33,137 bases of DNA from Dechloromonas sp. (GTDB lineage Bacteria; Pseudomonadota; Gammaproteobacteria; Burkholderiales; Rhodocyclaceae), in the NCBI GenBank assembly GCA_008933675.1, contig WBUO01000022.1, positions 1-33,137 on the forward strand. Reading direction: 5' to 3'. Numbering within the stretch: the first letter of the stretch is position 1; the number at the start of each line of letters is the position of its first letter. The notes beneath the pieces were generated by a model. It did not search any database. It saw only the letters and a list, made by a program, of their open reading frames with translations, and was not told the origin of the DNA. Shown here piece after piece: positions 6,986 through 23,363 of the stretch. Position numbers and translations under genes: made by a program.

Positions 6986-7975
6986 TCAGAATCCGGCACG
7001 CGACTGGCTCGGCGTCACTCCGAAGGCACGCCGGTAGGCGGTAGCGAAATTGGCCGAGCTGGTGTAGCCGGCAATTCCTGCGGCCTCGACGATGGAACGT
7101 CCTTCGCACTCCAGTGCCTGGCGCGCACGCAACAGACGAGCACGCCGCAGGTACTCGAAAACGCTCACGCCACAGAGCGCGCGAAACTGCTTCTGCAGCG
7201 TGCTGACATTGGTGCCGGCGTGTCGCGCAATGTCATCGAGCGACATGTCGTCCGCCGCGCCGCTGTCCAGGAGCTCACGCACATCGGCGGCACGCCGGCG
7301 TTCGCGCGGCAGCAGGGTTGGCGGAGGGGCGACGTTGGTCATCTGGCGCAGCGCTTCCACCACCAGCTCGATCACCCGGCTTTCCTGATGGAGCTTGCGC
7401 AACAGTGGCGGATCGTCCGACGGGCGGATCAACTGCTCGGCCAGCGCCACGGCGCGTGGCGTCGGCGTCCAGCGTTCGACGGCAAGATGGCTGTTGAAAA
7501 GGGCGAGGTACCCGGCATCACCTTCCGGACAGCTCGCGGCCAGCCATTCGCGGCTGAAACCAATGCTCACCTTGCGTTCGCGCTTGCCGCGCCAGGCGCG
7601 CCGCACGAAAAGCTCCGGCTCCAGAAGCTGGATGAAAGCGGCCTGCGGCCGACGCCCATGCCCCCCGGCGCTGAGGCGGAGGCAGCCCGGGCCGAACGAC
7701 ACATCGACGTCGCCATCGAGTATCAGCGCGAGATGCAGACTTTCACCCTGCTCCGCACTCTGAATGTTCAGATCGTGCAAATCGAGGACGTCGGCGCAAT
7801 GAAGCATCAGGCCTGGGCGCAGGCGCTCGCCGTAGCACCGGCCGAGCATGACGGGAGCGTCCGGCGCGAGTCCGGAGTCGATGCGGACAGTACCAGCACC
7901 GGTAGAAGTGGGGGGATACAGATCGCTGCACCGGATGATCTGCTGACTGCCATCCGAGGGTTTGAACACCGTCAT
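6986..7975 (-). CDS. AraC family transcriptional regulator (PchR-like)
   Basis: C-terminal AraC HTH (MSLDDIARHAGTNVSTLQKQFRALCGVSVFEYLRRARLLRARQALE...AGIAGYTSSANFATAYRRAFGVTPSQSR); divergent from a TonB receptor gene. Confidence 0.88.
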   Translation of the reverse strand: MTVFKPSDGSQQIIRCSDLYPPTSTGAGTVRIDSGLAPDAPVMLGRCYGERLRPGLMLHCADVLDLHDLNIQSAEQGESLHLALILDGDVDVSFGPGCLRLSAGGHGRRPQAAFIQLLEPELFVRRAWRGKRERKVSIGFSREWLAASCPEGDAGYLALFNSHLAVERWTPTPRAVALAEQLIRPSDDPPLLRKLHQESRVIELVVEALRQMTNVAPPPTLLPRERRRAADVRELLDSGAADDMSLDDIARHAGTNVSTLQKQFRALCGVSVFEYLRRARLLRARQALECEGRSIVEAAGIAGYTSSANFATAYRRAFGVTPSQSRAGF

Positions 7976-8033
7976 TCCTTTCTGCGCCGGTCGATAGCGG
8001 GGCGCAAACAACTTTCTTTTTTGCACAAAAGCC

Positions 8034-8052
8034 TGCACCCGAAACGGGTGCA
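8034..8052. promoter_or_regulatory. Perfect inverted repeat TGCACCCG-AAA-CGGGTGCA, candidate operator
   Basis: 8-bp arms, 3-nt spacer, in the araC/TonB-receptor intergenic region. Confidence 0.55.
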
Positions 8053-8072
8053 ATAATACGCAGCCTTTTCGC

Positions 8073-8092
8073 AAACGACAATTGTTCTCATT
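8073..8092 (+). promoter_or_regulatory. Possible Fur box
   Basis: AAACGACAATTGTTCTCATT resembles degenerate Fur sites upstream of TonB receptor genes. Confidence 0.45.
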
Positions 8093-8106
8093 ACACAGGA
8101 AGCAAC

Positions 8107-10212
8107 ATGCGCCCCCCTTTCATCCATCGACAACTAAGCTCCCGGGCCATCGCCATCGCCGCCCTGACTGCCGGCGCCATGTCAGCACAGGCTCAGGAAG
8201 CGCCCACACCCCTGGCTCCCGTACAAGTGATCGGCGAAAAAATGGGGCGCAGCGAGCAGGATTCGGTAACAGCCGTTTCGGTCTTCACGGCCCAGGAAAT
8301 TGCCGACAAAGACAGGAAGACCGTGCTGGACCTCGTCGCCGAAGTACCCAACGTGACCATCGGCGAGTTCGGCGGCGTGGCCAACATCCGCGGCAGCAAT
8401 GGCGCCGGCCCGGGCTTTTCCTCGCTGGCCTGGAAGGGGGCAACGCGCGCCCGCACGGCTACCGTCATTGATGGCGTCAGCCAGGTGTGGACCGGCGGCA
8501 ACCTGCTGAGCAATGACCTCTGGGACGTGGAGCAGATGGAAGTGCTGCGTGGCCCGCAATCGACCATGCAGGGGCGTTCGGCCATCGGTGGCGCCATCGT
8601 GCTCAAGACAAAGGATCCCAGCTTCAAGCAGGAAGGCGCCGTGCGTCTCGGCCTGCAGCAGGCCAACGGCCAGTTGCTCGGCCAGGCAGCCGGCGTGGTC
8701 TCCGGCCCGCTGTCGGACAGTCTGGCCTACCGGCTGAGCGCCGATGTCACGCGCGGCGATCACTGGATCGATTATGTGGACAACAACACCCGCACAGGCA
8801 TGGATTATTCGTCGGACCCGAACAAAGTGGTGCGCAACGACATCAAGGCCAAGCTGCTTTGGGCACCGAAGAGCAACCCGGAGCTGATCAGCCGGCTGGA
8901 TCTGCAGCACAAGTCGCAAAAGGGCCCCTACCTGAATCAGGTGAACGTCGGCGATGACGACGATTACCGCGCATCCATGGACAAGGTGAACCACCGCATC
9001 GGCGACACCACCATGAACGCAGTCATCTGGAACACCACCTATCAGTTCGATGCCAACCGCTCGGTGGACGTTCTGCTGTCGGCTTCCGAGCTGGACGCGA
9101 GATTCACGCATAACGACACGAATGGCTCGGGAGTTCCCCGTACGAACACCAACACCTACTTCAACGCGAATTCGAAACAGGACAGTCTGGGCTTTGAAAC
9201 GCGCCTGAACCTGAACTCGGCGACCTCCGGCCTCAAGTCCATGGTGGGGATCTCTCATTTCGAGGACGACCTGACGGTGCTGGCCAGGACCTACATCGGG
9301 GCGATCCGCTATTCGGGCGACACCAAGACTGTCGCCACCGCGCTCTTCGGCGAAGTGGACTATCCGCTGAGCGAGCGCTGGGCGCTGATCGCCGGTGGCC
9401 GCATCGAGCGTGAATCACAGGACCGTACCATCACAAACGGCGTACTGACGCAGTCGCGTGAGGCCACCAAGACCTACGTGCTGCCCCGTCTGGCTGTCCG
9501 CTACACACTCGATCCGCAGACGGTATTCGGCCTCGATGTCCGCAAGGGCTACAACCCGGCTGGCTTTGCCATGGACACCGATGCCAGCAAGGTCTCCACC
9601 TACGAGGTCGAGTACGTCACGGCTGTCGAGGCGAGCGTGAAGCAGCGCTTCAACGGCGGCAAGGGCCACTGGTCGATCAACCTGTTCAACAACGCCTTCA
9701 AGGACTACCAGGTCAGAAACGGTACGCTGATTTCCAACGTCGACGAAGCCACCATCCGTGGCATCGAGTTCGAGCTGGGCACCGATCTGGGCAGTGCCAC
9801 CCATGTCTACGCCAACGCCAGCCTGCAGACTTCCAAGGTCGACGCCTTCGCGGCCAACCGGACCTATGTCGGCAACAAGCTGCCGTATGCCGCACCGCGC
9901 ACCTTTGGCGCCGGCGTGACGTACAAGCTGATGCCGGAGCTCACGCTCGGCGCCAACGCCAAATATGTAGCGTCCTACTACGTGGACATCTCCAATGCCG
10001 CCGGCACGATTGCTGGCCAGAAAGCCCAGGCTGGCGACTACACCCTGGTGGACATCAGTGCCAGCTACGCCATCGACACGCGCACACGGGTTCGTGCCTA
10101 CGTGAACAACCTGTTCGACGAATACGTGGTCAACACCTACTTCCAGGGCACCCTCAGCCAGGACGTGCTGGCGCCGCGCACCGTGGGCCTGCAACTGGAC
10201 TACCGGTTCTGA
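8107..10212 (+). CDS. TonB-dependent siderophore receptor
   Basis: Signal peptide, plug domain (VSVFTAQEIADKDRKTVLDLVAEVPNVTIGEFGG, MEVLRGPQSTMQGRSAIGGAIVLKTKDP) and C-terminal beta-strand ending in F (APRTVGLQLDYRF). Confidence 0.94.
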   Translation: MRPPFIHRQLSSRAIAIAALTAGAMSAQAQEAPTPLAPVQVIGEKMGRSEQDSVTAVSVFTAQEIADKDRKTVLDLVAEVPNVTIGEFGGVANIRGSNGAGPGFSSLAWKGATRARTATVIDGVSQVWTGGNLLSNDLWDVEQMEVLRGPQSTMQGRSAIGGAIVLKTKDPSFKQEGAVRLGLQQANGQLLGQAAGVVSGPLSDSLAYRLSADVTRGDHWIDYVDNNTRTGMDYSSDPNKVVRNDIKAKLLWAPKSNPELISRLDLQHKSQKGPYLNQVNVGDDDDYRASMDKVNHRIGDTTMNAVIWNTTYQFDANRSVDVLLSASELDARFTHNDTNGSGVPRTNTNTYFNANSKQDSLGFETRLNLNSATSGLKSMVGISHFEDDLTVLARTYIGAIRYSGDTKTVATALFGEVDYPLSERWALIAGGRIERESQDRTITNGVLTQSREATKTYVLPRLAVRYTLDPQTVFGLDVRKGYNPAGFAMDTDASKVSTYEVEYVTAVEASVKQRFNGGKGHWSINLFNNAFKDYQVRNGTLISNVDEATIRGIEFELGTDLGSATHVYANASLQTSKVDAFAANRTYVGNKLPYAAPRTFGAGVTYKLMPELTLGANAKYVASYYVDISNAAGTIAGQKAQAGDYTLVDISASYAIDTRTRVRAYVNNLFDEYVVNTYFQGTLSQDVLAPRTVGLQLDYRF

Positions 10213-10226
10213 CGGAGCATCGCGAC

Positions 10227-10505
10227 TTGAACTGGATCATCGCCCTCGGCCTGCTGCTGGCCACCGCCGGCAGCGCCAGCATCTATCTGGCCTCGCCGAA
10301 CCAGCGCTGGCTGGTGGCCCCCTGGCCGGCGCGGCCAGCCCGCGCTGCCGGCACGCTTTTGCTGGCGGCCGCCCTGATCGTGCTCTTGCAGGTTCTGCAG
10401 CCGGCAGCGGGCTGCTTTGTTTTCCTCCATTGGCTGATGCTGTTGTTCGTTCTTTTCCCTTATCTCGGCGCACTGCGCAGCGCGCGCCGGAGAACCGTCG
10501 CATGA
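10227..10505 (+). CDS. Small membrane protein (DUF3325-like) of siderophore-uptake operon
   Basis: Hydrophobic 92-aa ORF between the receptor and the next membrane gene, overlapping the latter by 4 nt. Confidence 0.65.
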   Translation: MNWIIALGLLLATAGSASIYLASPNQRWLVAPWPARPARAAGTLLLAAALIVLLQVLQPAAGCFVFLHWLMLLFVLFPYLGALRSARRRTVA

Positions 10506-10792
10506 ATACCGGCAAACCCAAGAGCATTGCGCACGACTGGCTTGCCAAAACCCTTGCCGGCACATTGCTTGGCTTCTCCCTGGCAATCGGCTGCGCGGGT
10601 CTGTTCAACGGGCTGGCAGCAGACATGCCGCTGTCCATCCGCGGCCAGCTCAGCATGTGGCTGACGGCACCGGTCTGGCTGGGGACGCTCTCGGGCGTCT
10701 ACTTCTTCCGCAACGGCCTGCGTGCCTGGGTCTGGCTGGGTACTGCCAACCTGCTGGCTTACGGCATTCTGGCCGGACTCCGTCTCAGCTGA
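10502..10792 (+). CDS. Small membrane protein (DUF3649-like)
   Basis: MNTGKPKSIAHDWLAKTLAGTLLGFSLAIGCAGLFN...LSMWLTAPVWLGTLSGVYFFRNGLRAWVWLG; start overlaps upstream stop. Confidence 0.7.
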   Translation: MNTGKPKSIAHDWLAKTLAGTLLGFSLAIGCAGLFNGLAADMPLSIRGQLSMWLTAPVWLGTLSGVYFFRNGLRAWVWLGTANLLAYGILAGLRLS

Positions 10793-10817
10793 TCTTCCGG
10801 GTTTCATCCACCTTCGC

Positions 10818-12449
10818 ATGCGTTCCGACTTCATCCGCATTTACAAATCCGTCCATACCTGGACGGGCATCGTTGCCGGCATGGCCTTGTTCATTGCTTT
10901 TTATGCTGGCGCGATCACCATCTTCAAAGAGCCACTGGTACGCTGGGCGACACCACCGTCTGCAACCCACGGTCAAGCCATCGCACTGGATCAGGCGCCG
11001 CTCCTGATCGCCCAGACCCTGCGCGACCATCCGGCGGCAGCCAGGGATTTCCGGCTCCCGCTGCAGTCCGCCGAACACCTGCCCGGCGGACTTTCCTGGG
11101 CGGTACGCGAGAATGAAGCCGACGACCACGACCATTCGTCCGCCCGCCACTACTTCGCCATTCCGGAAGATGGCGGAACGGTACGCGTCGAGGAAAACCA
11201 CCCCTCGGAACTGGCTGAGTTCATCGACGTATTGCATCGCGTGGCAGGCCTGCCCTTTGATACCGATCCGAACCGCTGGGTCATGGGCATCATTGCCGCC
11301 CTTTACACCCTTGCGCTGGTTTCCGGCGTGATCGTGCTGCTCCCCTCGCTGGTGAAAGATTTTTTCGCCCTGCGCGTGGGCAAAAACATCAAACGCATGT
11401 GGCTCGATGCCCATAACGTGGTCGGCATCATCAGCCTGCCTTTCCATGTGGTCATGGCACTCACCGCCGTGGTCTTCGCCTATCACGACGGCTTCTATTT
11501 CATTCAGGACAAACTGATCCACGACGGCAAGTGGGCCACGGCCTTCTCCCGTGGCGGGCCTCCCACTTCAGCCGCACCACGCGATCCGGCAGCGATGCGC
11601 TCGCCAGCCGAATTGCTGGCCAATGTGCGAGCTCTCTCGCCAGGCTTCGAGCCGACCTCCCTGCAATACCTGAATGCCACCGGGCCGCGCGCGACGGTAC
11701 GTGTCTGGGGGCACGACCCCTCGGCACATTCTCCGCGTTTCCTTGGCGGATTCGTTGCCCTGGATCCTTATAGCGGCAAGGTCATCAACGCCGATTTCCT
11801 GCCGGGCCAGCAGAGTCTGCCCAATGCCGTCGTTGGCAGCTTCTTTGCCCTGCACTTCGGCACCTATGGCGGCACGCCGGTACAGTGGATGTATTTCCTG
11901 CTCGGCCTGGCGGGTGCCTGGCTATTCTATGGCGGCAACCTGCTCTGGCTGGAAACCCGGCGGATCAAAGCTGCGAAACGTGATGACGGCAGCGGCGTGC
12001 CGCCCGAACAGCGACGCGATGTTCGCTGGATGGCTGCCGGCACCGTCGGTGTCTGTCTCGGCGCCGTCTGCGGGATTTCACTCACCATCGTTGCCGCCAA
12101 ATGGCTGCAAGGCCGGGTTGACGACCTCAACACCTGGCATCTGGGCCTTTACTACACGGTATTTTTCGGCGCACTGGCCTGGGCCTTCCGTTGCGGAGCA
12201 GCCCGCTCCGCCATCCATCTCCTGTGGCTGGCAGCCGCGTTCACCATCGCCATTCCGCTCACCAGCCTGCTCGCCTGGTTGCTACCCTCTCTGGGCATGT
12301 GGGCCCACGGCAGTAGCGCAACGCTCGGGGTCGATGCAACGGCTCTGGCCGGTGGGCTCTGTTTTGTCTGGCTGGCGCGCGCCACGCATCGACGTGCGAT
12401 GGAGGGCCCTGTCGACAGCGTCTGGTCTTTACGCCGGGGAAAGGCATGA
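10818..12449 (+). CDS. PepSY-associated TM helix protein (PiuB/FptC-like)
   Basis: MRSDFIRIYKSVHTWTGIVAGMALFIAFYAGAITIFKEPL..., WLDAHNVVGIISLPFHVVMALTAVVFAYHDGFYF. Confidence 0.85.
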   Translation: MRSDFIRIYKSVHTWTGIVAGMALFIAFYAGAITIFKEPLVRWATPPSATHGQAIALDQAPLLIAQTLRDHPAAARDFRLPLQSAEHLPGGLSWAVRENEADDHDHSSARHYFAIPEDGGTVRVEENHPSELAEFIDVLHRVAGLPFDTDPNRWVMGIIAALYTLALVSGVIVLLPSLVKDFFALRVGKNIKRMWLDAHNVVGIISLPFHVVMALTAVVFAYHDGFYFIQDKLIHDGKWATAFSRGGPPTSAAPRDPAAMRSPAELLANVRALSPGFEPTSLQYLNATGPRATVRVWGHDPSAHSPRFLGGFVALDPYSGKVINADFLPGQQSLPNAVVGSFFALHFGTYGGTPVQWMYFLLGLAGAWLFYGGNLLWLETRRIKAAKRDDGSGVPPEQRRDVRWMAAGTVGVCLGAVCGISLTIVAAKWLQGRVDDLNTWHLGLYYTVFFGALAWAFRCGAARSAIHLLWLAAAFTIAIPLTSLLAWLLPSLGMWAHGSSATLGVDATALAGGLCFVWLARATHRRAMEGPVDSVWSLRRGKA

Positions 12450-13851: not shown

Positions 13852-13927
13852 GGGTCGGTAGCTCAGTCGGTAGAGCAGCGGACTTTTAATCCGTTGGTCC
13901 CGAGTTCGAATCTCGGCCGACCCACCA
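13852..13927 (+). tRNA. tRNA-Lys (anticodon TTT)
   Basis: GGGTCGGTAGCTCAGTCGGTAGAGCAGCGGACTTTTAATCCGTTGGTCCCGAGTTCGAATCTCGGCCGACCCACCA; cloverleaf, encoded CCA. Confidence 0.97.
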
Positions 13928-13941
13928 AGAATCCCGAATCC

Positions 13942-14017
13942 GGGGCGTTAGCTCAGTTGGTAGAGCAGCGGACTCTTAATCCGTAGGTCCACAGTTCGAA
14001 TCTGTGACGCCCCACCA
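13942..14017 (+). tRNA. tRNA-Lys (anticodon CTT)
   Basis: GGGGCGTTAGCTCAGTTGGTAGAGCAGCGGACTCTTAATCCGTAGGTCCACAGTTCGAATCTGTGACGCCCCACCA; cloverleaf, encoded CCA. Confidence 0.96.
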
Positions 14018-14055: not shown

Positions 14056-14216
14056 ATTTGCCCCCGGGAAATCGCCAGACATCCCGACAGCAGACCTGAC
14101 CTGCGGCGGGTGCAGCGGACCGCGCGGGCAATCCGGCCGACAGGCCTCCGACAATGGCGCACATGTTGCTTTGATTCCGGCTTCCGCAGCCGGACTGCCC
14201 ACGCCTTGTGCCATCG

Positions 14217-15845
14217 ATGAAGACGCCCCCTACCGATCCCGCCAATGTTCGCGAAGAACTGGTCGAACAGGAACAACTGCTGATCCGCGAGAGCATCCGC
14301 CTGCTCAGTCGCGGCCTGGAACCCGACAAGGCCATCCGCGAAATGCTGCATCTGCTGTCCGAATTGCTCGGCCTCAACCGCGGCCGGGTCGTCCTGCGCG
14401 ACGGGCAGACGGACGAGCTGGCCATTCGTGTCGCCTACGGCCTGACCCGGGATGAAATGGCGCGCGGCCGTTACCGGATGGGCGAAGGCATCACCGGCCG
14501 CGTGATGCAGTCGGGCGAAGTGCTGATCGTCCAGGACATCGACGCCGAACCCGCCTATCTGGCACGCGCCGTGGACCGGAACAGCCTGCCGGAGGGCACG
14601 GTTTCTTTCATTGCCATGCCGATTCTCGTCGACCAGGTGATCTCCGGCGTGCTTGGCGTGCACCGCCTGCGCTCGCGGCAGCGCTCGCTCGGCGCCGATC
14701 TGCAGATCCTGCACACGATCGCCGAGCTGATGGGGCAGATATTCAAGATCCATCAGTTGATCGAAAGGCGTACCGCGCTGCTCAAGGAGGAAAATCACTC
14801 GCTGCGGGCGGCCCTGCAGCAAAGAACCCGCGGCAAGACCAACTGGGGCATCGTCGGCGAGGCGCCGCAGCTGCTGACAGCCCTCGATCAGCTGGAGCAG
14901 GTCGCCGGCACCGAGGCGACGGTCATGCTGCTCGGCGAATCAGGCACCGGCAAGGAGCTGTTCGCCCGGGCGCTGCACCTGCAGAGCCCGCGCCGCGAGA
15001 AGCCGTTCGTCAAGGTGAACTGCGCCGCGATCCCGGAAACGCTGTTCGAGGCCGAGCTGTTCGGCCATGAAAAGGGCGCCTTCACCGGCGCCGCCCAGCA
15101 ACGCATCGGCCGCTTCGAGCAGGCCAACGGCGGCACCCTCTTCCTCGACGAAATCGGCGATCTGCCGCTGCCGGTGCAGGTCAAGCTGCTGCGCGTCCTG
15201 CAGGAGAAGATCGTCGAGCGCCTGGGCGGGCGCGGCGAAATCCCGGTGGACGTACGCATTGTCGCCGCCACCCATCAGGACATGATGGCACTGGTGCGCG
15301 CCGGACGCTTCCGGCTCGATCTCTATTACCGCCTCAACGTCATCCCGATCCGCCTGCCGGCGCTGCGCGAGCGCCCGGGTGACATCAAGCTGCTCGTCCG
15401 CCACTTCGTCTCGCAACTCAACCAGCATCACCAGCGCAACATCCTGATCACCCCGCAAGCCATGTCCAGCCTGGTTTCCTACCCCTGGCCGGGCAACATC
15501 CGGCAGCTGTACAACGTCTGCGAGCGCATCGTGCTGCTGTCGCGGACCGATGAAATCGACGAAGGCACTGTCGATTACGTGCTGGTCACCGAAGCCCAGG
15601 GACAGCCCGTCGAGGTGCTGCCCGGCACGACACCGGCAAGCCCGCTGGTCGCCGGTGGCGCCCATTCGCTGATCCGCCCCTACCAGAACGTCGAAGCGGG
15701 CGAACGCGAACAGATCGCCGCTGCCCTGGCCGCTCACGGCGGCAACAAATCGCGCACGGCCAAGGCACTCAACCTGACCCTGCGCCAACTGAACTACCGC
15801 ATCCAGATACTGGCCATTCCCCTGCCCATCAGAAGCAAATTGTGA
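14217..15845 (+). CDS. Sigma54-dependent activator, NifA-like (GAF + AAA+ + Fis-type HTH)
   Basis: GAF region, LLGESGTGKELFARALH Walker A, FGHEKGAFTGA sigma54 loop, C-terminal GGNKSRTAKALNLTLRQLNYRIQILAI similar to the NifA HTH. Confidence 0.92.
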   Translation: MKTPPTDPANVREELVEQEQLLIRESIRLLSRGLEPDKAIREMLHLLSELLGLNRGRVVLRDGQTDELAIRVAYGLTRDEMARGRYRMGEGITGRVMQSGEVLIVQDIDAEPAYLARAVDRNSLPEGTVSFIAMPILVDQVISGVLGVHRLRSRQRSLGADLQILHTIAELMGQIFKIHQLIERRTALLKEENHSLRAALQQRTRGKTNWGIVGEAPQLLTALDQLEQVAGTEATVMLLGESGTGKELFARALHLQSPRREKPFVKVNCAAIPETLFEAELFGHEKGAFTGAAQQRIGRFEQANGGTLFLDEIGDLPLPVQVKLLRVLQEKIVERLGGRGEIPVDVRIVAATHQDMMALVRAGRFRLDLYYRLNVIPIRLPALRERPGDIKLLVRHFVSQLNQHHQRNILITPQAMSSLVSYPWPGNIRQLYNVCERIVLLSRTDEIDEGTVDYVLVTEAQGQPVEVLPGTTPASPLVAGGAHSLIRPYQNVEAGEREQIAAALAAHGGNKSRTAKALNLTLRQLNYRIQILAIPLPIRSKL

Positions 15846-15880
15846 ACAATTTGTACACTGATTGTGCACACGCACAATTC
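15838..15880 (+). promoter_or_regulatory. Candidate enhancer (UAS) for the NifA-like activator
   Basis: TTGT repeated at 15840, 15851 and 15862 (11-bp phasing), ATTGT-ga-ACAAT and ATTGTGC-acac-GCACAAT dyads, about 45-85 bp upstream of the -24 element. Confidence 0.6.
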
Positions 15881-15923
15881 GGAAGATAAATACAACCATA
15901 TGATTTAACTGAATAAATACAAC

Positions 15924-15939
15924 TGGCACGGCAGTTGCC
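15924..15939 (+). promoter_or_regulatory. Sigma54 (RpoN) -24/-12 promoter
   Basis: TGGCACGGCAGTTGCC: GG-N10-GC spacing, matches TGGCACG-N4-TTGC. Confidence 0.93.
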
Positions 15940-15995
15940 ATAGTCAGGACAAGTTCATCCTTCCGGCGCAAGCCTTTCAGATCAGGAGATTGTCC

Positions 15996-17177
15996 ATGTC
16001 CACTGTCACCCTCGACGCTCCGGCCGCCACCGGCAGCACCGCGCTCACCGCGAGCAGCCCGAACGACGACGGCCTTGCCGCCATTCACGGCGTCATCGCC
16101 AAGCTGCTGACGCCCAAGGTCCTCGATGTGGACCTCAAGGCCGAATATCCCGAAGACTTTCTGCGCGCCCTCGGCCAGGCCGGTGGTTACCGCGGCGCCG
16201 TCGCCCCGGAATTCGGCGGCAACGGTCTGGGCATGAAGCACGTCGTTCAGGTCATGGAGACGGTGGCCAAGGAATGCCTGTCCAGCGCCTTTCTCGTCTG
16301 GTGCCAGACCGCCTGCGCCCGCTACATCCAGATGTCCGGCAACGACTGGCTGAAGCAGCAGTTCCTGCCGCGCATCGTCAGCGGCGAGCAACTGGCCGGT
16401 ACCGGCCTGTCGAACACCGTCAAATCCTGCGACACCATCGAGGACTTCCGTCTCGCCGCCCGGCGCGTCGACGGCGGCTACGTCATCAACGGCGTCCTGC
16501 CCTGGGTTTCCAACCTCGGTCCCGGCCACGTCTTCACCACCGGCTGCCCGGTGGTCGGCGAGGACAACAAGCTGGTCTTCGTGATGGTCGATTGCAGCCA
16601 GGCCGGCTTCAAGCTGGTCGACTGCGCCCACTTCATCGGCATCGACGGCACCCGCACGCTGGCCTGCCACTTCAAGGAAGCCTTCGTGCCGGACAGCATG
16701 GTGCTCGCCCACCCGAGCGAATCCGAAGCCTACGTCAAGCGCATCAAGCCGGGCATGATCCACGCCCAGATGGGCATGGGCCTCGGCCTGATCGACGCCT
16801 GCTGCAAGATGATGCACCAGTCGAACCGCACCCACGCCCACGTCAACCAGTACCTCGACGACCAGGTCGAGGACATCGAGAGCATTCTCACCGGCGCCCG
16901 CATGGCGGTCTATGACATCGCCGACGAGCTCTCCGACGGGCCGGGCAGCGAACGGACGCTGGAAATCCTGAAACTGCGCCTGGCCGGCGGCGAACTGTGC
17001 CTGCGGGCGGCCAATGCCGCCATGCTCTACCAGGGCGCCAAGGGCTATCTGGTGCGCAATCCGGCCCAGCGCCGCCTGCGCGAGGCCTACTTCGTCGCCA
17101 TCGTCACGCCGGCCACCAAGCACCTGCGCCGCGAGATCGCCCGCATCGAGGGTGGTCACAGCTGCGACGGCATGTGA
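15996..17177 (+). CDS. Acyl-CoA dehydrogenase-fold flavoprotein (possible monooxygenase or atypical oxidase)
   Basis: GGYRGAVAPEFGGNGLGMKHVVQVMETVAKE, GEQLAGTGLSNTVKS..., C-terminal YQGAKGYLVRNPAQRRLREAYFVAIVTPATKHLRREIARI; canonical YEGTxEIQR motif not present. Confidence 0.85.
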   Translation: MSTVTLDAPAATGSTALTASSPNDDGLAAIHGVIAKLLTPKVLDVDLKAEYPEDFLRALGQAGGYRGAVAPEFGGNGLGMKHVVQVMETVAKECLSSAFLVWCQTACARYIQMSGNDWLKQQFLPRIVSGEQLAGTGLSNTVKSCDTIEDFRLAARRVDGGYVINGVLPWVSNLGPGHVFTTGCPVVGEDNKLVFVMVDCSQAGFKLVDCAHFIGIDGTRTLACHFKEAFVPDSMVLAHPSESEAYVKRIKPGMIHAQMGMGLGLIDACCKMMHQSNRTHAHVNQYLDDQVEDIESILTGARMAVYDIADELSDGPGSERTLEILKLRLAGGELCLRAANAAMLYQGAKGYLVRNPAQRRLREAYFVAIVTPATKHLRREIARIEGGHSCDGM

Positions 17178-17190
17178 GCGGGAGGAAGCC

Positions 17191-17373
17191 ATGAGCGCAA
17201 CCGTGCAAACGACCCAGTGGATCTGCAAGGTCTGCAACTGGATCTATGACGAGGCCGCCGGCGATCCGGAGCACGGCCTCGCCCCCGGCACCGCCTTCGC
17301 CGACATCCCGGACGACTGGTACTGCCCGGAATGCGGCGTCACCAAGGCCGATTTTGAGGCACTGGAGTTCTGA
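17191..17373 (+). CDS. Rubredoxin
   Basis: WICKVCNWIYDEAAGDPEHGLAPGTAFADIPDDWYCPECGVTKADFEALEF; CxxC...CPxCG. Confidence 0.97.
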   Translation: MSATVQTTQWICKVCNWIYDEAAGDPEHGLAPGTAFADIPDDWYCPECGVTKADFEALEF

Positions 17374-17529: not shown

Positions 17530-18873
17530 ATGTCACTGAATAACCCCTTCGACCCGAACAGCACCCTGCACACCTGCAGTTGCCGCCAGCACGCCTCGCA
17601 AGCCGAACACGACCTGGCGGAAGTCGATGCGCTGAACCAGCGCGTCATCCAGTCGACCGTGATGCGGGCGCTGTTCCCGCAGGATGCCGAGCGGCGCAAC
17701 TTCCTGCGCTCGGTGGGTGCGTCGACGGCCTGGGCGGCGATTTCCTCGCTGATTCCCTTTGGCGCGCTGGAAGCGATGGCCCAGGAAAAGGGCAGCCTGG
17801 AAAAGAAGGACCTGAAGGTGGGCTTCATCCCCATCACCTGCGCCAGCCCGCTGATCATGGCCGACCCGCTGGGCTTCTACAAGAAGGAAGGCCTCAACGT
17901 CACGATGATGAAGACGGCCGGCTGGGCGCTGATCCGCGACAAGGTGCTGAACAAGGAATACGACGCGGCCCACATGCTGGCGCCGATGCCGCTGGCCATC
18001 TCGATGGGTGTCGGCTCGAACGCCGCGCCGACCGACGTGATGACCATCCAGAACATCAACGGTCAGGCCATCGTGCTGGCCAACAAGCACAAGAACAATC
18101 GCGATCCGAAGAACTGGAAGGGCTTCAAGTTCGCCATCCCCTTCGAGTTCTCGATCCACAACCTGCTGCTGCGCTATTACCTGGCCGAGCACGGCATCAA
18201 TCCGGATACCGACGTCCAGCTGCGCGTCGTCGCCCCGCCGGAAATGGTGGCCAACCTGCGCGCCGGCAACATCGACGGCTTCCTTGGTCCCGATCCGGTG
18301 AACCAGCGTGCCGTCTATGACGAACTCGGTTTCATCCACATCCTCTCGCGGGAAATCTGGGACGGCCATCCGTGCTGCTCCTTCGCCATCCCGACCGAGT
18401 TCATCCAGCAGAACCCGAACAGCTTCGCCGCGCTTTACCGTGCCATCCTCAAGGCCTCGGCCATGGCCCGCGATCCGAAGAACCGGCCGATCATGGCCGA
18501 GGTTCTGGCACCGGCCAATTACCTGAACCAGCCCAAGGCGGTGCTCGAACAGGTGCTCACCGGCAAGTTCGCCGACGGCCTGGGCAATGTCCGCAACGTG
18601 CCGGAACGCGTCGATTACGACCCCTTCCCGTGGTACTCGATGGCCTACTGGATCCTGTCGCAGATGAAACGCTGGGGCTACGTCAAGGGCGACATCCGCT
18701 ACAAGGACATCGCCGAGAAGGTCTATCGCCTGACCGACGCGCGCAAGCACATGACGGCGCTCGGCATGAACCCGCCCAAGGAAAACCTGAAGAAATTCGT
18801 CGTCATGGGCAAGGAATTCGACCCGGCCAAGGCAGATGCCTACGTCAACAGCTTCGCCATCAAGAAGGCCTGA
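17530..18873 (+). CDS. ABC transporter substrate-binding protein, NrtA/CmpA/CynA type, with internal Tat-like signal
   Basis: RRNFLRSVGASTAWAAISSLIPFGALEAMAQ then LKVGFIPITCASPLIMADPLGFYKKEGLNVTMMKTAGWALIRDKVLNKEYDAAHMLAPMPLAI. Confidence 0.9.
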   Translation: MSLNNPFDPNSTLHTCSCRQHASQAEHDLAEVDALNQRVIQSTVMRALFPQDAERRNFLRSVGASTAWAAISSLIPFGALEAMAQEKGSLEKKDLKVGFIPITCASPLIMADPLGFYKKEGLNVTMMKTAGWALIRDKVLNKEYDAAHMLAPMPLAISMGVGSNAAPTDVMTIQNINGQAIVLANKHKNNRDPKNWKGFKFAIPFEFSIHNLLLRYYLAEHGINPDTDVQLRVVAPPEMVANLRAGNIDGFLGPDPVNQRAVYDELGFIHILSREIWDGHPCCSFAIPTEFIQQNPNSFAALYRAILKASAMARDPKNRPIMAEVLAPANYLNQPKAVLEQVLTGKFADGLGNVRNVPERVDYDPFPWYSMAYWILSQMKRWGYVKGDIRYKDIAEKVYRLTDARKHMTALGMNPPKENLKKFVVMGKEFDPAKADAYVNSFAIKKA

Positions 18874-18883
18874 GGAGCGGATC

Positions 18884-19726
18884 ATGTTCAAGACACAAGG
18901 ATTCAAGGCGGGATTGATCTCGCTGCTGCTCTTCCTGCTCTTCCTCGGGGCGTGGTCGCTGGCCACCTTCCCCAAGGAGCAGGCGACGCTGAGCGGTGCC
19001 GATGCCGAATACGCGGCCCTGATGGGCAAGGGGGCCGAGAAGTCGAGCGGCTTCCCGGCACCGGGCAAGGTGGGCGAGGCTTTCGTCACCTACCTGTCCG
19101 ACCCCTTCTACGACAACGGGCCGAACGACAAGGGCATCGGCATCCAGCTCGCCCATTCGCTGGCCCGCGTCGCCCTCGGCTTCCTGCTGGCGGTTGCCGT
19201 CGCCCTGCCGCTCGGCTTCGCCATCGGCATGTCGCCGCTGCTGCTGCAGGCCTTCAACCCCTTCATCCAGATCCTCAAGCCGATCTCGCCGCTGGCCTGG
19301 ATGCCGCTGGCGCTGTACAGCCTGAAGGACTCGGATGTCTCCGGCATCTTCGTGATCTTCATCTGCTCGCTGTGGCCGATGCTGATCAACACCGCTTTCG
19401 GCGTCGCCTCGGTGCGCAAGGACTGGATCAACGTCGCCCGGACACTGGAAGTCAGCCCGCTGCGCAAGGCCTTCCAGGTGATCCTGCCGGCCGCCGCACC
19501 GACCATCCTGACCGGCATGCGCATCTCGATGGGCATCGCCTGGCTGGTCATCGTCGCCGCCGAGATGCTGGTCGGCGGTACCGGCATCGGCTACTTCGTG
19601 TGGAACGAGTGGAACAACCTGGCCCTGCCCAACGTGATCTTCGCCGTCGTCATGATCGGCCTCGTCGGCATGATCCTCGACCAGATCTTCGGCGTGCTGC
19701 AGAAGTTCGTCACCTACCGGGAGTAA
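18884..19726 (+). CDS. ABC transporter permease, NrtB/CmpB/CynB type
   Basis: IQILKPISPLAWMPLALYSLKDSDVSGIFVIFICSLWPMLINTAFG...EVSPLRKAFQVILPAAAPTILTGMRISMGIAWLVIVAAEML. Confidence 0.93.
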   Translation: MFKTQGFKAGLISLLLFLLFLGAWSLATFPKEQATLSGADAEYAALMGKGAEKSSGFPAPGKVGEAFVTYLSDPFYDNGPNDKGIGIQLAHSLARVALGFLLAVAVALPLGFAIGMSPLLLQAFNPFIQILKPISPLAWMPLALYSLKDSDVSGIFVIFICSLWPMLINTAFGVASVRKDWINVARTLEVSPLRKAFQVILPAAAPTILTGMRISMGIAWLVIVAAEMLVGGTGIGYFVWNEWNNLALPNVIFAVVMIGLVGMILDQIFGVLQKFVTYRE

Positions 19727-19731
19727 TGGCC

Positions 19732-20643
19732 ATGACCCAGCATTTCCTCAGCGTCGAAGGCCTGAAGAAGGCTTACCCCGGTACCCCCACGCCGGTTTTC
19801 GAAAACATCCACTTCGCCATCGAAAAGGGCGAGTTCGTCTGCATCATCGGCCACTCCGGCTGCGGCAAGACGACCATCCTCAATGTCCTGGCCGGTCTTG
19901 AAGAAGCCAGCGGCGGCGTCGTCATCATGGACGGCCGCGAGGTCAGCGGCCCCAGCCTCGACCGCGGTGTCGTCTTCCAGAGCCATGCGCTGATGCCGTG
20001 GATGAGCGTGCTCGCCAACGTCGCCTTCGCCGTCAAGTCGAAGTGGCCGGACATGCCGAAGGCGCAGGTCGAGGCGCACTGCACCAAGTACCTGGAGATG
20101 GTCGGCCTCGGCCAGGCCATCCACAAGAAGCCGGCGGAACTGTCGGGCGGCATGAAGCAGCGTGTCGGCATCGCCCGCGCCTTCGCCATCGAACCGAAGA
20201 TGCTGCTGCTCGACGAGCCCTTCGGCGCGCTCGATGCGCTGACCCGCGGCACCATCCAGGACGAGTTGCTGAAAATCGTCCAGGCGACGCACCAGACGGT
20301 GTTCATGATCACCCACGACGTCGATGAGGCCATCCTCCTCGCCGACAAGGTGGTGCTGATGAGCAACGGCCCGCTGGCCAAGATCGCCGAGATCGTCGAG
20401 ATCACGATGCCACGCGAGCGGACGCGGGCCGACATGCACCACGACCCGCAGTTCTACCGCATCCGCAATCACCTGGTCGACTTTCTGGTCAATCGCTCGA
20501 AGGGCTACGCCGGCAGCGATGCCGCCGTACTCCACGACGCGAAGCATCCGCCGGTCGTCCGTCCCGGCCTGGTCGAGGAGGAGGCGCCGGAGAGCGCCAC
20601 CTTTCGCCAGCCGCCGCAATTGAAACAGGTCGTCAATCACTAA
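19732..20643 (+). CDS. ABC transporter ATP-binding protein, NrtD/CmpD/CynD type
   Basis: GHSGCGKTTILNVLAGLEEASGG Walker A; LSGGMKQRVGIARAFAIEPKMLLLDEPFGALD; ATG at 19732 in frame inside the longer 18952 ORF. Confidence 0.94.
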   Translation: MTQHFLSVEGLKKAYPGTPTPVFENIHFAIEKGEFVCIIGHSGCGKTTILNVLAGLEEASGGVVIMDGREVSGPSLDRGVVFQSHALMPWMSVLANVAFAVKSKWPDMPKAQVEAHCTKYLEMVGLGQAIHKKPAELSGGMKQRVGIARAFAIEPKMLLLDEPFGALDALTRGTIQDELLKIVQATHQTVFMITHDVDEAILLADKVVLMSNGPLAKIAEIVEITMPRERTRADMHHDPQFYRIRNHLVDFLVNRSKGYAGSDAAVLHDAKHPPVVRPGLVEEEAPESATFRQPPQLKQVVNH

Positions 20644-20665: not shown

Positions 20666-21109
20666 ATGAACCGCAACGACGTTACCGAACTGATCATCGC
20701 CGCCAAGGTGAACAAGGGCATCAAGTGGGCCGATGTCGCCGGCAAGATCGGCCTGTCGAAGGAATGGGTCACTGCCGGCTGCCTCGGCCAGATGACCTTC
20801 ACCGCCGAGCAGGCCAGGATTCTCGGCGACACCTTCGGGCTGCCGGACGAGGCGGTCAAGCTGCTGCAGGTCGTGCCCTACAAGGGCTCGCTGCCGACCG
20901 CCGTGCCGACCGACCCGCTGATCTACCGCTTCTACGAGCTGATCAGCGTCTACGGCACGACCTTCAAGGAACTGATCCACGAGGAATTCGGCGACGGCAT
21001 CATGTCCGCCATCGACTTCAAGATGGACCTGCAGCGCGAGCCCAACCCGATGGGCGACCGCGTCAGCATCACCATGTCCGGCAAGTTCCTGCCGTACAAG
21101 ACCTACTGA
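20666..21109 (+). CDS. cynS: Cyanate hydratase (cyanase)
   Basis: IYRFYELISVYGTTFKELIHEEFGDGIMSAIDFKMDLQ...GKFLPYKTY; carries the Arg/Glu/Ser known to be catalytic in E. coli CynS. Confidence 0.96.
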   Translation: MNRNDVTELIIAAKVNKGIKWADVAGKIGLSKEWVTAGCLGQMTFTAEQARILGDTFGLPDEAVKLLQVVPYKGSLPTAVPTDPLIYRFYELISVYGTTFKELIHEEFGDGIMSAIDFKMDLQREPNPMGDRVSITMSGKFLPYKTY

Positions 21110-21229: not shown

Positions 21230-21775
21230 ATGTCCGCAGAAACCACCAAAACCTACCTCCGCCCGATCGACCGTGACGGCCTGCTCAAATTCGCCGCCGG
21301 CGGCAAGGAGAACCCGGAGCGCCGCGGCACCAACAAGGTGCATACCGTGATGCAGGGCCAGTTCCGCTCGTGGAGCTTCGTCGGCATCCACAACCCGGTC
21401 GTCGTCGATGAGCCGCTCCACCTGTTCGGCGAGAACACCGCCCCGGCACCCGGCGAAATCGTCCTCTCCGCCCTCGGCGGCTGCCTTGGCGTCGGCATCA
21501 CCGCCATCGCCACGCATCGCCAGGTCAAGCTTTCCCGCCTGGAAATCTTCCTCGAAGCCGATATCGGCAACACCGCCGCCTGGGGTGCCGGTGGCGCCGA
21601 GCGCAAGCCGGAGGAAATGGGCTTCAAGGAAATACGCGTCAAGGTCGTGATCGAAGGCGATGCCAGCCAGGAGGAACTGGACGACATCGTGCACAAGGCC
21701 AACTACTACTCGCCGGTCGCCAACACCATGCGCAACCCGATCCCCTTCACCATCGCCAAGGTGGACGAGGCCTGA
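21230..21775 (+). CDS. OsmC family protein
   Basis: APAPGEIVLSALGGCLGVGITAIATHRQVKLSRLEIFLEADI...VANTMRNPIPFTI. Confidence 0.85.
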   Translation: MSAETTKTYLRPIDRDGLLKFAAGGKENPERRGTNKVHTVMQGQFRSWSFVGIHNPVVVDEPLHLFGENTAPAPGEIVLSALGGCLGVGITAIATHRQVKLSRLEIFLEADIGNTAAWGAGGAERKPEEMGFKEIRVKVVIEGDASQEELDDIVHKANYYSPVANTMRNPIPFTIAKVDEA

Positions 21776-21776
21776 C

Positions 21777-22121
21777 ATGAGCAAATCGTTTTCGGTCATC
21801 ACCGGAGACGTCTCGAAGGCGCTGGGCAAGCTGCGCAGCGCCATTCCCGAGACGATGAAGGGCTTCGGCCAGCTGTCGCAGGCGGCCCTCGCCGAAGGCA
21901 CGCTGTCGGCGCTGCACAAGGAACTGACGGCGCTGGCCATCGGCGTCGCCTCGCGCTGCGATGCCTGCATCGGCTTCCACGTGAAGGCGCTGATCAAGCT
22001 CGGCGTCACCCGCGAGCAGTTGATGGAGACGCTGGCCATCTGTGTCTACATGGGTGGCGGTCCGACGCTGATGTACGCCGCCGAAGCCGTCCGCGCCTAT
22101 GACGAGTTCACCGGCGACTGA
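21777..22121 (+). CDS. AhpD-like / carboxymuconolactone decarboxylase family protein
   Basis: LHKELTALAIGVASRCDACIGFHVKALIKLGVTREQLMETLAICVYMGGGP; CxxC-H redox motif. Confidence 0.9.
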   Translation: MSKSFSVITGDVSKALGKLRSAIPETMKGFGQLSQAALAEGTLSALHKELTALAIGVASRCDACIGFHVKALIKLGVTREQLMETLAICVYMGGGPTLMYAAEAVRAYDEFTGD

Positions 22122-22196: not shown

Positions 22197-23363
22197 ATGA
22201 ACAAGCGAACCCTGATCATTGGCAGCGGCCAGGCTGCCATCACGCTGGTCCGCGAGCTGCGCAAGCTCGACGCCAGCCGCGAGATCACCCTCGTCACCGC
22301 CGACGACGGCGATTTCTATTCGAAGCCGAACATCTCCAACGCCTTCGCCGCCGGCAAGCAGGCGGCAGAACTGGTGCTGACACCGGCCAGCCGGCTGGCC
22401 GGGGATCTGCGCCTGGAGATGCTGACGCGGACAGCTGTCGCCAGCATCGATGCGGCGCGGCGGGAAATCGTCACGGCGCAGGGGCGGCTGGGCTACGAAC
22501 AGCTCGTCCTCGCCGTCGGTGCCTCGCCGATTCCGCTGCGCCTGGCCGGCGACGGCGCGCCGGATGTCGTCTCGATCAACAACCTGGCCGACTACGCCGG
22601 CTTGCGTGCCCGTCTGGCCGGCAAGCACCGCGTGGCGATCGTCGGCGCCGGACTGATCGGTTGCGAACTGGCCAACGATCTGCGGCTCGGCGGCTACGCG
22701 GTCGACCTGTTCGATACCGCCGACCATCCCCTGGGCCGGCTGCTGCCACCGGGCAGCGGCCACTATCTGCGCGACAGGCTGGTGGCGATCGGCATCTGCT
22801 TCCATCCCGGCGTCAAACCCGACGCCCTGCGCCGCGATGGCGAGGGCTACGTCCTGATCGACAGCCGCGGCCGGACGCAGCGGTACGACCTGATCATCTC
22901 CGCCATCGGTCTGCGCCCCAACCTGGCGCTGGCCAAGACCGCCGGCATCGCCACCGGGCTGGGCATCATCACCGACAAGCTCTTGCTCACGTCGCAGCCC
23001 GACATCTACGCCATCGGCGACTGCATCGAGTTCGACGGACATTTCCTGCCTTACGTGATGCCGATCATGCATGGGGCAAAGAAACTGGCGCAGACGCTGA
23101 ACGGCAATCCGCAGACGCTGAGCTATCCGGCCATGCCCATCGTCCTCAAGACACCGGCCTGCCCGACGGTTGTCTGCCCGCCCCCGCCGGTCGCCGGACA
23201 CTGGGAAGAGGTACTGGCCGAGGAAGGCACGCGCGCCCTGTTCGTCGAGGCGGACAGCGGCGAAGCCTGCGGCTTCGTGCTGCAGGGCAGCTTCACCCGC
23301 GAACGCATGGCGCTGGCGGCCCGCATGCCGGGACTCGGCAAACCGCTGCCGCAGCCGGCCTGA
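22197..23363 (+). CDS. NAD(P)/FAD-dependent oxidoreductase, rubredoxin reductase-like
   Basis: TLIIGSGQAAITLVRELRKLD, VAIVGAGLIGCELANDL, PDIYAIGDCIEFDG; two Rossmann motifs. Confidence 0.9.
   Translation: MNKRTLIIGSGQAAITLVRELRKLDASREITLVTADDGDFYSKPNISNAFAAGKQAAELVLTPASRLAGDLRLEMLTRTAVASIDAARREIVTAQGRLGYEQLVLAVGASPIPLRLAGDGAPDVVSINNLADYAGLRARLAGKHRVAIVGAGLIGCELANDLRLGGYAVDLFDTADHPLGRLLPPGSGHYLRDRLVAIGICFHPGVKPDALRRDGEGYVLIDSRGRTQRYDLIISAIGLRPNLALAKTAGIATGLGIITDKLLLTSQPDIYAIGDCIEFDGHFLPYVMPIMHGAKKLAQTLNGNPQTLSYPAMPIVLKTPACPTVVCPPPPVAGHWEEVLAEEGTRALFVEADSGEACGFVLQGSFTRERMALAARMPGLGKPLPQPA

Follow-up and report, generated by a model that had tools for sequence, protein, structure and literature searches.

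A cyanase gene series with a sigma-54 promoter in Dechloromonas sp. encodes an acyl-CoA dehydrogenase-fold protein that lacks the catalytic glutamate and may act as a pseudohalide oxygenase

Gene content and promoter of the locus

The window analyzed here, that is, the whole stretch of 33,137 nucleotides from Dechloromonas sp., contains one series of genes, all on the + strand, that runs from a sigma-54 activator through a rubredoxin reductase and includes a protein with the acyl-CoA dehydrogenase (ACAD) fold. The features of this series are as follows:

14208–15845, + strand: NifA/CynF-like sigma-54 activator with GAF, AAA+ and Fis-type HTH domains (Sigma54_activat 4e-72, GAF, HTH_8)
15862–15877, no strand assigned: palindrome TTGTGCACACGCACAA, possible activator-binding site (presumed function)
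15924–15938, + strand: sigma-54 (-24/-12) promoter TGGCAC-GGCAG-TTGC, 57 bases before the ACAD ATG
15996–17177, + strand: ACAD-fold flavoenzyme with VTPA replacing YEGT (open reading frame, Pfam and PDB matches, homologue alignment)
17191–17373, + strand: rubredoxin (PF00301 7e-23), 13 bases past the ACAD stop
17530–18873, + strand: CynA/NrtA-type substrate-binding protein with H-x-C-C at the anion site (NMT1_2 4e-79)
18884–19726, + strand: ABC permease, CynB-like (TIGR01183 ntrB, 223 bits, over the cut-off)
19720–20643, + strand: ABC ATPase, CynD-like (TIGR01184 ntrCD, 311 bits, over the cut-off)
20666–21109, + strand: cyanase CynS (TIGR00673, 174 bits against a cut-off of 113)
21230–21775, + strand: OsmC-family protein with one invariant cysteine, Cys85 (PF02566 6e-21)
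21774–22121, + strand: AhpD/CMD-family protein with CxxC (PF02627 1e-20; TIGR00778 over the cut-off)
22197–23363, + strand: NAD(P)H:rubredoxin reductase (Pyr_redox_2, PF07992, 1e-45; Rbx_binding, PF18113, 3e-20)

The series thus has the features of a cyn operon, which the initial annotation had overlooked: a cyanase above its cut-off, a CynABD-type importer, and a CynF-like sigma-54 activator with its promoter. The cyanase gene is the single copy found in this genome. The activator scores 479 bits with the nifA model, under the cut-off of 529, and the rubredoxin reductase scores 287 bits with the NorW model, under the cut-off of 392. A complete NAD(P)H-to-rubredoxin chain is encoded in the cluster: all four cysteines of the rubredoxin are conserved (14/14), and the reductase, which is not a flavin reductase, carries a rubredoxin-binding C-terminal domain. 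Cys85 of the OsmC-family protein is present in 38/38 sequences, and there is no second conserved cysteine.

The exact sigma-54 consensus has a single match in the whole window, the promoter at 15924–15938. Matches with up to two mismatches were found upstream of the ACAD gene, or of an OsmC gene that starts the series, in 28–29 of 44 related loci, against about 3 loci (about 0.07 per locus) expected from base-shuffled sequence. The sigma-54 activator is conserved in 27/43 related loci; the palindrome recurs, at an equal distance to the promoter, in loci L008 and L010 and was not seen in most others.

Directly before the activator gene lies a pair of tRNA-Lys genes (TTT and CTT anticodons, 13852–14017). 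In the five relatives sampled from this genus or family the ACAD gave no hit, so the tRNA pair could mark an integration site. Further upstream (6986–12449), the translations point to an AraC-type regulator, a TonB-dependent receptor and a PepSY-type membrane protein, apparently a siderophore-uptake group.

The ACAD-fold protein and its missing catalytic base

The ACAD-fold gene is an intact open reading frame (ATG at 15996, stop at 17177) of 393 amino acids, and no convincing gene competes with it on the opposite strand, where the antisense frame 14940–17237 resembles a GC-rich shadow. Two Pfam domains are above their cut-offs, Acyl-CoA_dh_N (PF02771, 2.1e-16) and Acyl-CoA_dh_1 (PF00441, 8.3e-7), and PDB acyl-CoA dehydrogenases align over the full length of the protein, at 3e-23 with the single sequence and 2e-27 with the family profile. 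On these sequence matches, the fold assignment is secure. An AlphaFold2 model built from 11 sequences has a mean pLDDT of 56, and below 50 in the active-site loop, a quality too low for judging the active site.

The C-terminal block of the protein reads QRRLREAYFVAIVTPATKHLRREIARI. In the profile alignment, its segment 'lreayfiaivtpatk', of which the family form is LREAYF(I/V)AIVTPATK, aligns on 'MRDAKITQIYEGTNQ' of 7w0j, so Thr371-Pro372 stands where the catalytic Glu-Gly would. The initial annotation was therefore right that the canonical YEGT glutamate is absent. It had also named a catalytic glutamate at the position used by IVD and LCAD, together with acyl-CoA activity, as the finding that would overturn its view; in the alignment with 1ivh, the glutamate of 1ivh falls in an insert opposite the gap M254/I255, and there is no acid nearby.

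Conservation was assessed in 44 homologues drawn from named contigs, other genomes and plasmids, and in a separate check of 37 members. Thr371 and Pro372 are identical in all 44, with identity down to about 27–35%, and the motif QRRxRExxF-x-x-IVTPA is common to the whole set. R360, R362, E363, K143, E149, W170, S172 and S139 are likewise invariant, while V370 and K375 occur in 43/44; W170, S172 and S139 align with the WxT and T/S residues through which ACADs contact the flavin. Since Thr-Pro is conserved throughout, loss of the catalytic glutamate is a trait of the whole family, and chance loss of the motif in one protein is ruled out. The intact frame together with this conservation also excludes a pseudogene or a sequencing artefact. 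The annotated records of family members covered here carry the label 'acyl-CoA dehydrogenase family protein', so the whole family is probably misnamed.

None of the NCBIfam equivalog models comes close to its own cut-off with this protein. The best is 3-sulfinopropanoyl-CoA desulfinase (77 bits, cut-off 600); SfnB (TIGR04022, 40.7 bits, cut-off 430.9) and DszC (NF043015, 24 bits, cut-off 850) score lower. With scores so far under the cut-offs, membership in the DszC or SfnB families, which the initial annotation had offered for comparison, is rejected. Its argument against beta-oxidation fared better: both glutamate positions are lost, neither an ETF gene nor another beta-oxidation gene adjoins the ACAD gene, and the rubredoxin that had been noticed next to it is accompanied by its own reductase. 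An ordinary acyl-CoA dehydrogenase is thus disfavoured on sequence evidence, and an oxygenase is plausible.

Related loci and clades

The relatives of the ACAD-fold protein split into three clades: (i) the window, Tepidiphilus, Azonexus, Dechloromonas, Sulfurisoma, Aromatoleum and the Neisseria group, in which the rubredoxin is mostly separate; (ii) Rhodobacterales plasmids and other alphaproteobacteria, which lack rubredoxin, mostly have an MST-like rhodanese, and sometimes carry a flavoprotein of the ferredoxin-reductase type; and (iii) Acetobacter, Marinobacter, Moraxella, Caballeronia plasmids and others, in which the rubredoxin is mostly fused to its reductase. The OsmC gene adjoins the ACAD gene in 37/43 loci and is replaced by a gene for a CMD protein in four (L036, L041, L061 and L064), so that one or the other is present in 41/43. 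Cyanase is encoded nearby in 22/43 loci, in all three clades, and rhodanese in 12 loci, with at least one in each clade. The place of the ACAD gene in a cyn cluster, together with the OsmC and often rhodanese of the related clusters, suggests that the substrate is a small pseudohalide.

A distant and very divergent ACAD relative (branch 4.8) on the Synechococcus plasmid pANL adjoins cysK and an H-x-C-C importer; many sulfur-related genes are known from this plasmid (PMC8049743). In pANL (L062, 9637–12987), the ACAD relative comes after cysK, a gamma-glutamyltranspeptidase-like gene and an SCO4226-like gene, and a relative of the gamma-glutamyltranspeptidase (33%) is also located near the ACAD gene in L032. 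Mutants of Synechococcus in cysR reportedly cannot use thiocyanate as a sulfur source, a point given no weight here.

Some other components were observed in a subset of loci. A DUF302-type gene is found in five (L012, L030, L031, L033 and L034), between the ACAD and rubredoxin genes or close to them; for the copy in L033, which lies between the two, PF03625 was confirmed. Neisseria holds an ACAD of the first clade (L036/G044 and L063). In L036 it is accompanied by rubredoxin and a CMD protein, with importer and cyanase not nearby, and genome G044 lacks cyanase; mucosal surfaces are rich in thiocyanate. In the plasmid collection, the N. gonorrhoeae records NZ_CP119140.1 and NZ_CP119142.1 (H1 and H2), both 2.17 Mb long, must be chromosomes mislabelled as plasmids.

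Linkage with cyanase

In an even sample from within the phylum, cyanase was found in 12/15 genomes with the ACAD and in 55/383 without it (p 6e-8). The samples are small and the genomes share ancestry; counted by genus, cyanase is present in 7/10 with the ACAD and in 36/202 without it (p 7e-4), so shared ancestry inflates the link but does not create it. Cyanase occurs in 19 of 25 sampled ACAD genomes and is located within about 10 kb of the ACAD gene in 13 of these 19.

Partner genes (OsmC, rubredoxin or rhodanese) were present in 12/12 sampled ACAD-cyanase loci, a figure that is partly built in since these loci were chosen by the ACAD, whereas in ACAD-free genomes no OsmC, rubredoxin or rhodanese gene was found within about 7 kb of cyanase (0/18 loci). 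These three components therefore belong with the ACAD and not with the cyanase.

The importers and the H-x-C-C motif

The ABC importers beside the ACAD gene are of two types, the CynABD-like one and a second, with binding proteins about 28% identical. Every ACAD-linked binding protein, including the pANL copy, has H-x-C-C (HPCC) at a position that is Lys-Lys in NrtC and Glu-Glu in CmpA. The identical motif is seen in five plain cynABDS operons, so H-x-C-C marks cyanate or a cyanate-like anion; for the same reason, the importer beside the ACAD gene may simply carry cyanate. H-x-C-C importers also adjoin the ACAD gene where cyanase was not found (G009/L038, G074/L041, G520/L064 and G380/L073). 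Since import of cyanate makes little sense in cyanase-free genomes, these cases fit import of a different substrate. Thiocyanate is the obvious cyanate-like anion, as it also explains the rhodanese, the plasmid with sulfur genes, and cysK beside the pANL relative.

H-x-C-C looks like a usable signature for telling importers of the cyanate type from those of the nitrate or bicarbonate type, some of which bear the plain annotation CmpA/NrtA.

Proposed function and alternative explanations

For the ACAD cluster, the loss of the base, the family-wide motif, the gene order, the conserved linkage and the promoter are established at the level of sequence. From these we infer oxygenation, the direction of electron flow, thiocyanate as the substrate, which is read from the gene neighbourhood, and the OsmC step; how the sulfur steps follow one another is a speculation based on the partner genes. 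Our preferred explanation, to which we assign a probability of roughly 0.4, is that the ACAD-fold protein is a rubredoxin-fed flavin oxygenase on the ACAD scaffold and that its substrate is an imported pseudohalide, most likely thiocyanate, yielding cyanate for the cyanase.

The pathway would then proceed as follows. The NifA/CynF-like activator would turn the series on through the sigma-54 promoter, and the pseudohalide, most likely SCN-, would enter via the importer of the H-x-C-C type. Electrons would pass from NAD(P)H to the rubredoxin reductase (22197–23363), then to the rubredoxin (17191–17373) and on to the ACAD flavin, where O2 would be activated; flow into the flavin is favoured because an NAD(P)H-dependent rubredoxin reductase is present. 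Oxidation of the thiocyanate sulfur, for example to OSCN-, would be followed by its capture on the lone cysteine of the OsmC protein and by release of OCN-. The AhpD-like protein, or rhodanese in one of the clades, might hand on the sulfane sulfur, and the cyanase would convert cyanate to ammonia and CO2. We tentatively extend this scheme to an oxygen-dependent third route of thiocyanate utilization, with the same rubredoxin-fed flavin monooxygenase, OsmC as sulfur acceptor and cyanate made for cyanase, that may occur among beta-, alpha- and gammaproteobacteria and have a divergent form on the cyanobacterial sulfur-starvation plasmid. Counterpoints to the thiocyanate-oxygenase explanation are the clade without rubredoxin and the loci without cyanase or rhodanese; moreover, rubredoxin could take electrons from the ACAD flavin instead.

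The main rival of thiocyanate as the substrate is cyanide, which a cyanide monooxygenase of the same chemistry, with a rubredoxin-fed flavin (4a-hydroperoxide), would convert to cyanate while rhodanese acted as a parallel means of detoxification. The succession of cyanide monooxygenase and cyanase is a textbook route, although the former enzyme was never shown experimentally (PMC11049912, PMC5778177), and both cyanase and rhodanese co-occur with the ACAD; however, HCN passes membranes without an ABC importer, the ACAD gene has H-x-C-C importers beside it even where cyanase is missing, the ACAD relatives accompany sulfur genes, and the OsmC protein is left unexplained. We thus regard cyanide as unlikely. 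An organosulfur or organonitrogen compound (a sulfonate, thioamide, thiourea, isothiocyanate or similar) is doubtful as well; it would release sulfur and sometimes cyanate, and the cyn genes would be nitrogen-scavenging partners under the same activator. The binding proteins of one clade do score best with SsuA of the sulfonate-binding family (98 bits, under the cut-off of 163.5), and the best NCBIfam model, the desulfinase, is a C-S cleaving ACAD, with SfnB also matching weakly, but plain cyanate operons have the identical H-x-C-C anion site, and the neighbourhood holds no widely conserved further enzyme for the organic residue.

Two further explanations are less probable. That the ACAD and rubredoxin form an oxidoreductase which, with OsmC and AhpD, shields the thiols of cyanase-bearing cells against cyanate or peroxides, no cyanate being made, would suit the thiol peroxidase-like nature of the OsmC and AhpD families and the carbamoylation of thiols by cyanate. 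We consider it improbable, as the ACAD-OsmC pair is present in cyanase-free genomes and most cyanase loci are without it (0/18 in ACAD-free genomes). Least probable of all is an unusual dehydrogenase or reductase of acyl-CoA (or an acyl carrier) with a different base and with rubredoxin replacing ETF: the protein is similar to ACADs along its whole length, but both glutamate positions are lost, and no gene for a CoA-ligase, hydratase, thiolase or ETF is conserved beside it. The interpretation in the initial annotation is partly supported overall: the sequence speaks against an ordinary acyl-CoA dehydrogenase, but membership among enzymes of the DszC/SfnB type is not borne out.

Comparison with known systems

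Thiocyanate serves many heterotrophs as a source of nitrogen or sulfur (PMC5328954, PMC5778177), and for its conversion the papers cited here describe only a copper dehydrogenase and a cobalt hydrolase. A cyanide monooxygenase has for decades been postulated with no gene assigned to it (PMC11049912). Ordinary bacteria may convert thiocyanate (or cyanide) to usable nitrogen and sulfur through an enzyme so far missing, for which the ACAD-fold protein is a candidate. A description of the ACAD-rubredoxin-OsmC-cyanase module was not found in the open-access literature searched and may exist elsewhere.

The closest counterpart of the series as a whole is cynFABDS of Pseudomonas pseudoalcaligenes CECT5344, in which a sigma-54 activator of the Fis family, a sigma-54 promoter, an ABC importer and a cyanase have the same roles (PMC6627978). 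In the window, however, the promoter drives the ACAD and rubredoxin genes first, and the OsmC, AhpD and rubredoxin reductase genes come after. The ACAD-rubredoxin-OsmC part is what this series adds, and the 18 cyanase loci from ACAD-free genomes show none of these additions.

The protein shares with SCAD, MCAD and IVD the fold, the full-length alignment and the residues aligned with flavin contacts, but differs from them in the invariant Thr-Pro that replaces the glutamate, in the lack of an IVD-type glutamate, and in the RxxFG motif, which is not kept in the alignments. With the monooxygenases of the DszC, HsaA, SfnB and HpaB type it has in common an ACAD scaffold without the catalytic glutamate and a presumed oxygenase role. 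Those ACAD-fold enzymes draw on free reduced flavin that a flavin reductase supplies, whereas the protein described here scores far under their cut-offs and is encoded in series with a rubredoxin and a rubredoxin reductase. We know of no enzyme that uses rubredoxin to feed an ACAD-fold oxygenase; if the proposed scheme is true, an ACAD-fold flavoenzyme would receive its electrons by a new route.

The proposed conversion of thiocyanate is shared with two known enzymes, thiocyanate dehydrogenase (TcDH) and thiocyanate hydrolase, and would lead to cyanate as in TcDH. TcDH is a copper enzyme that uses cytochrome c (PMC5778177), and thiocyanate hydrolase is a cobalt-containing relative of nitrile hydratase that makes COS (PMC5744179); neither resembles the ACAD. 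A thiocyanate hydrolase of the nitrile-hydratase type was also looked for in this genome and rejected, since nitrile-hydratase alpha gave no match, although it gave none in the control genomes either. Compared with these systems, the module described here offers a concrete and easily expressed candidate for the thiocyanate or cyanide step, one whose electron chain is defined and which comes with a sulfur acceptor.
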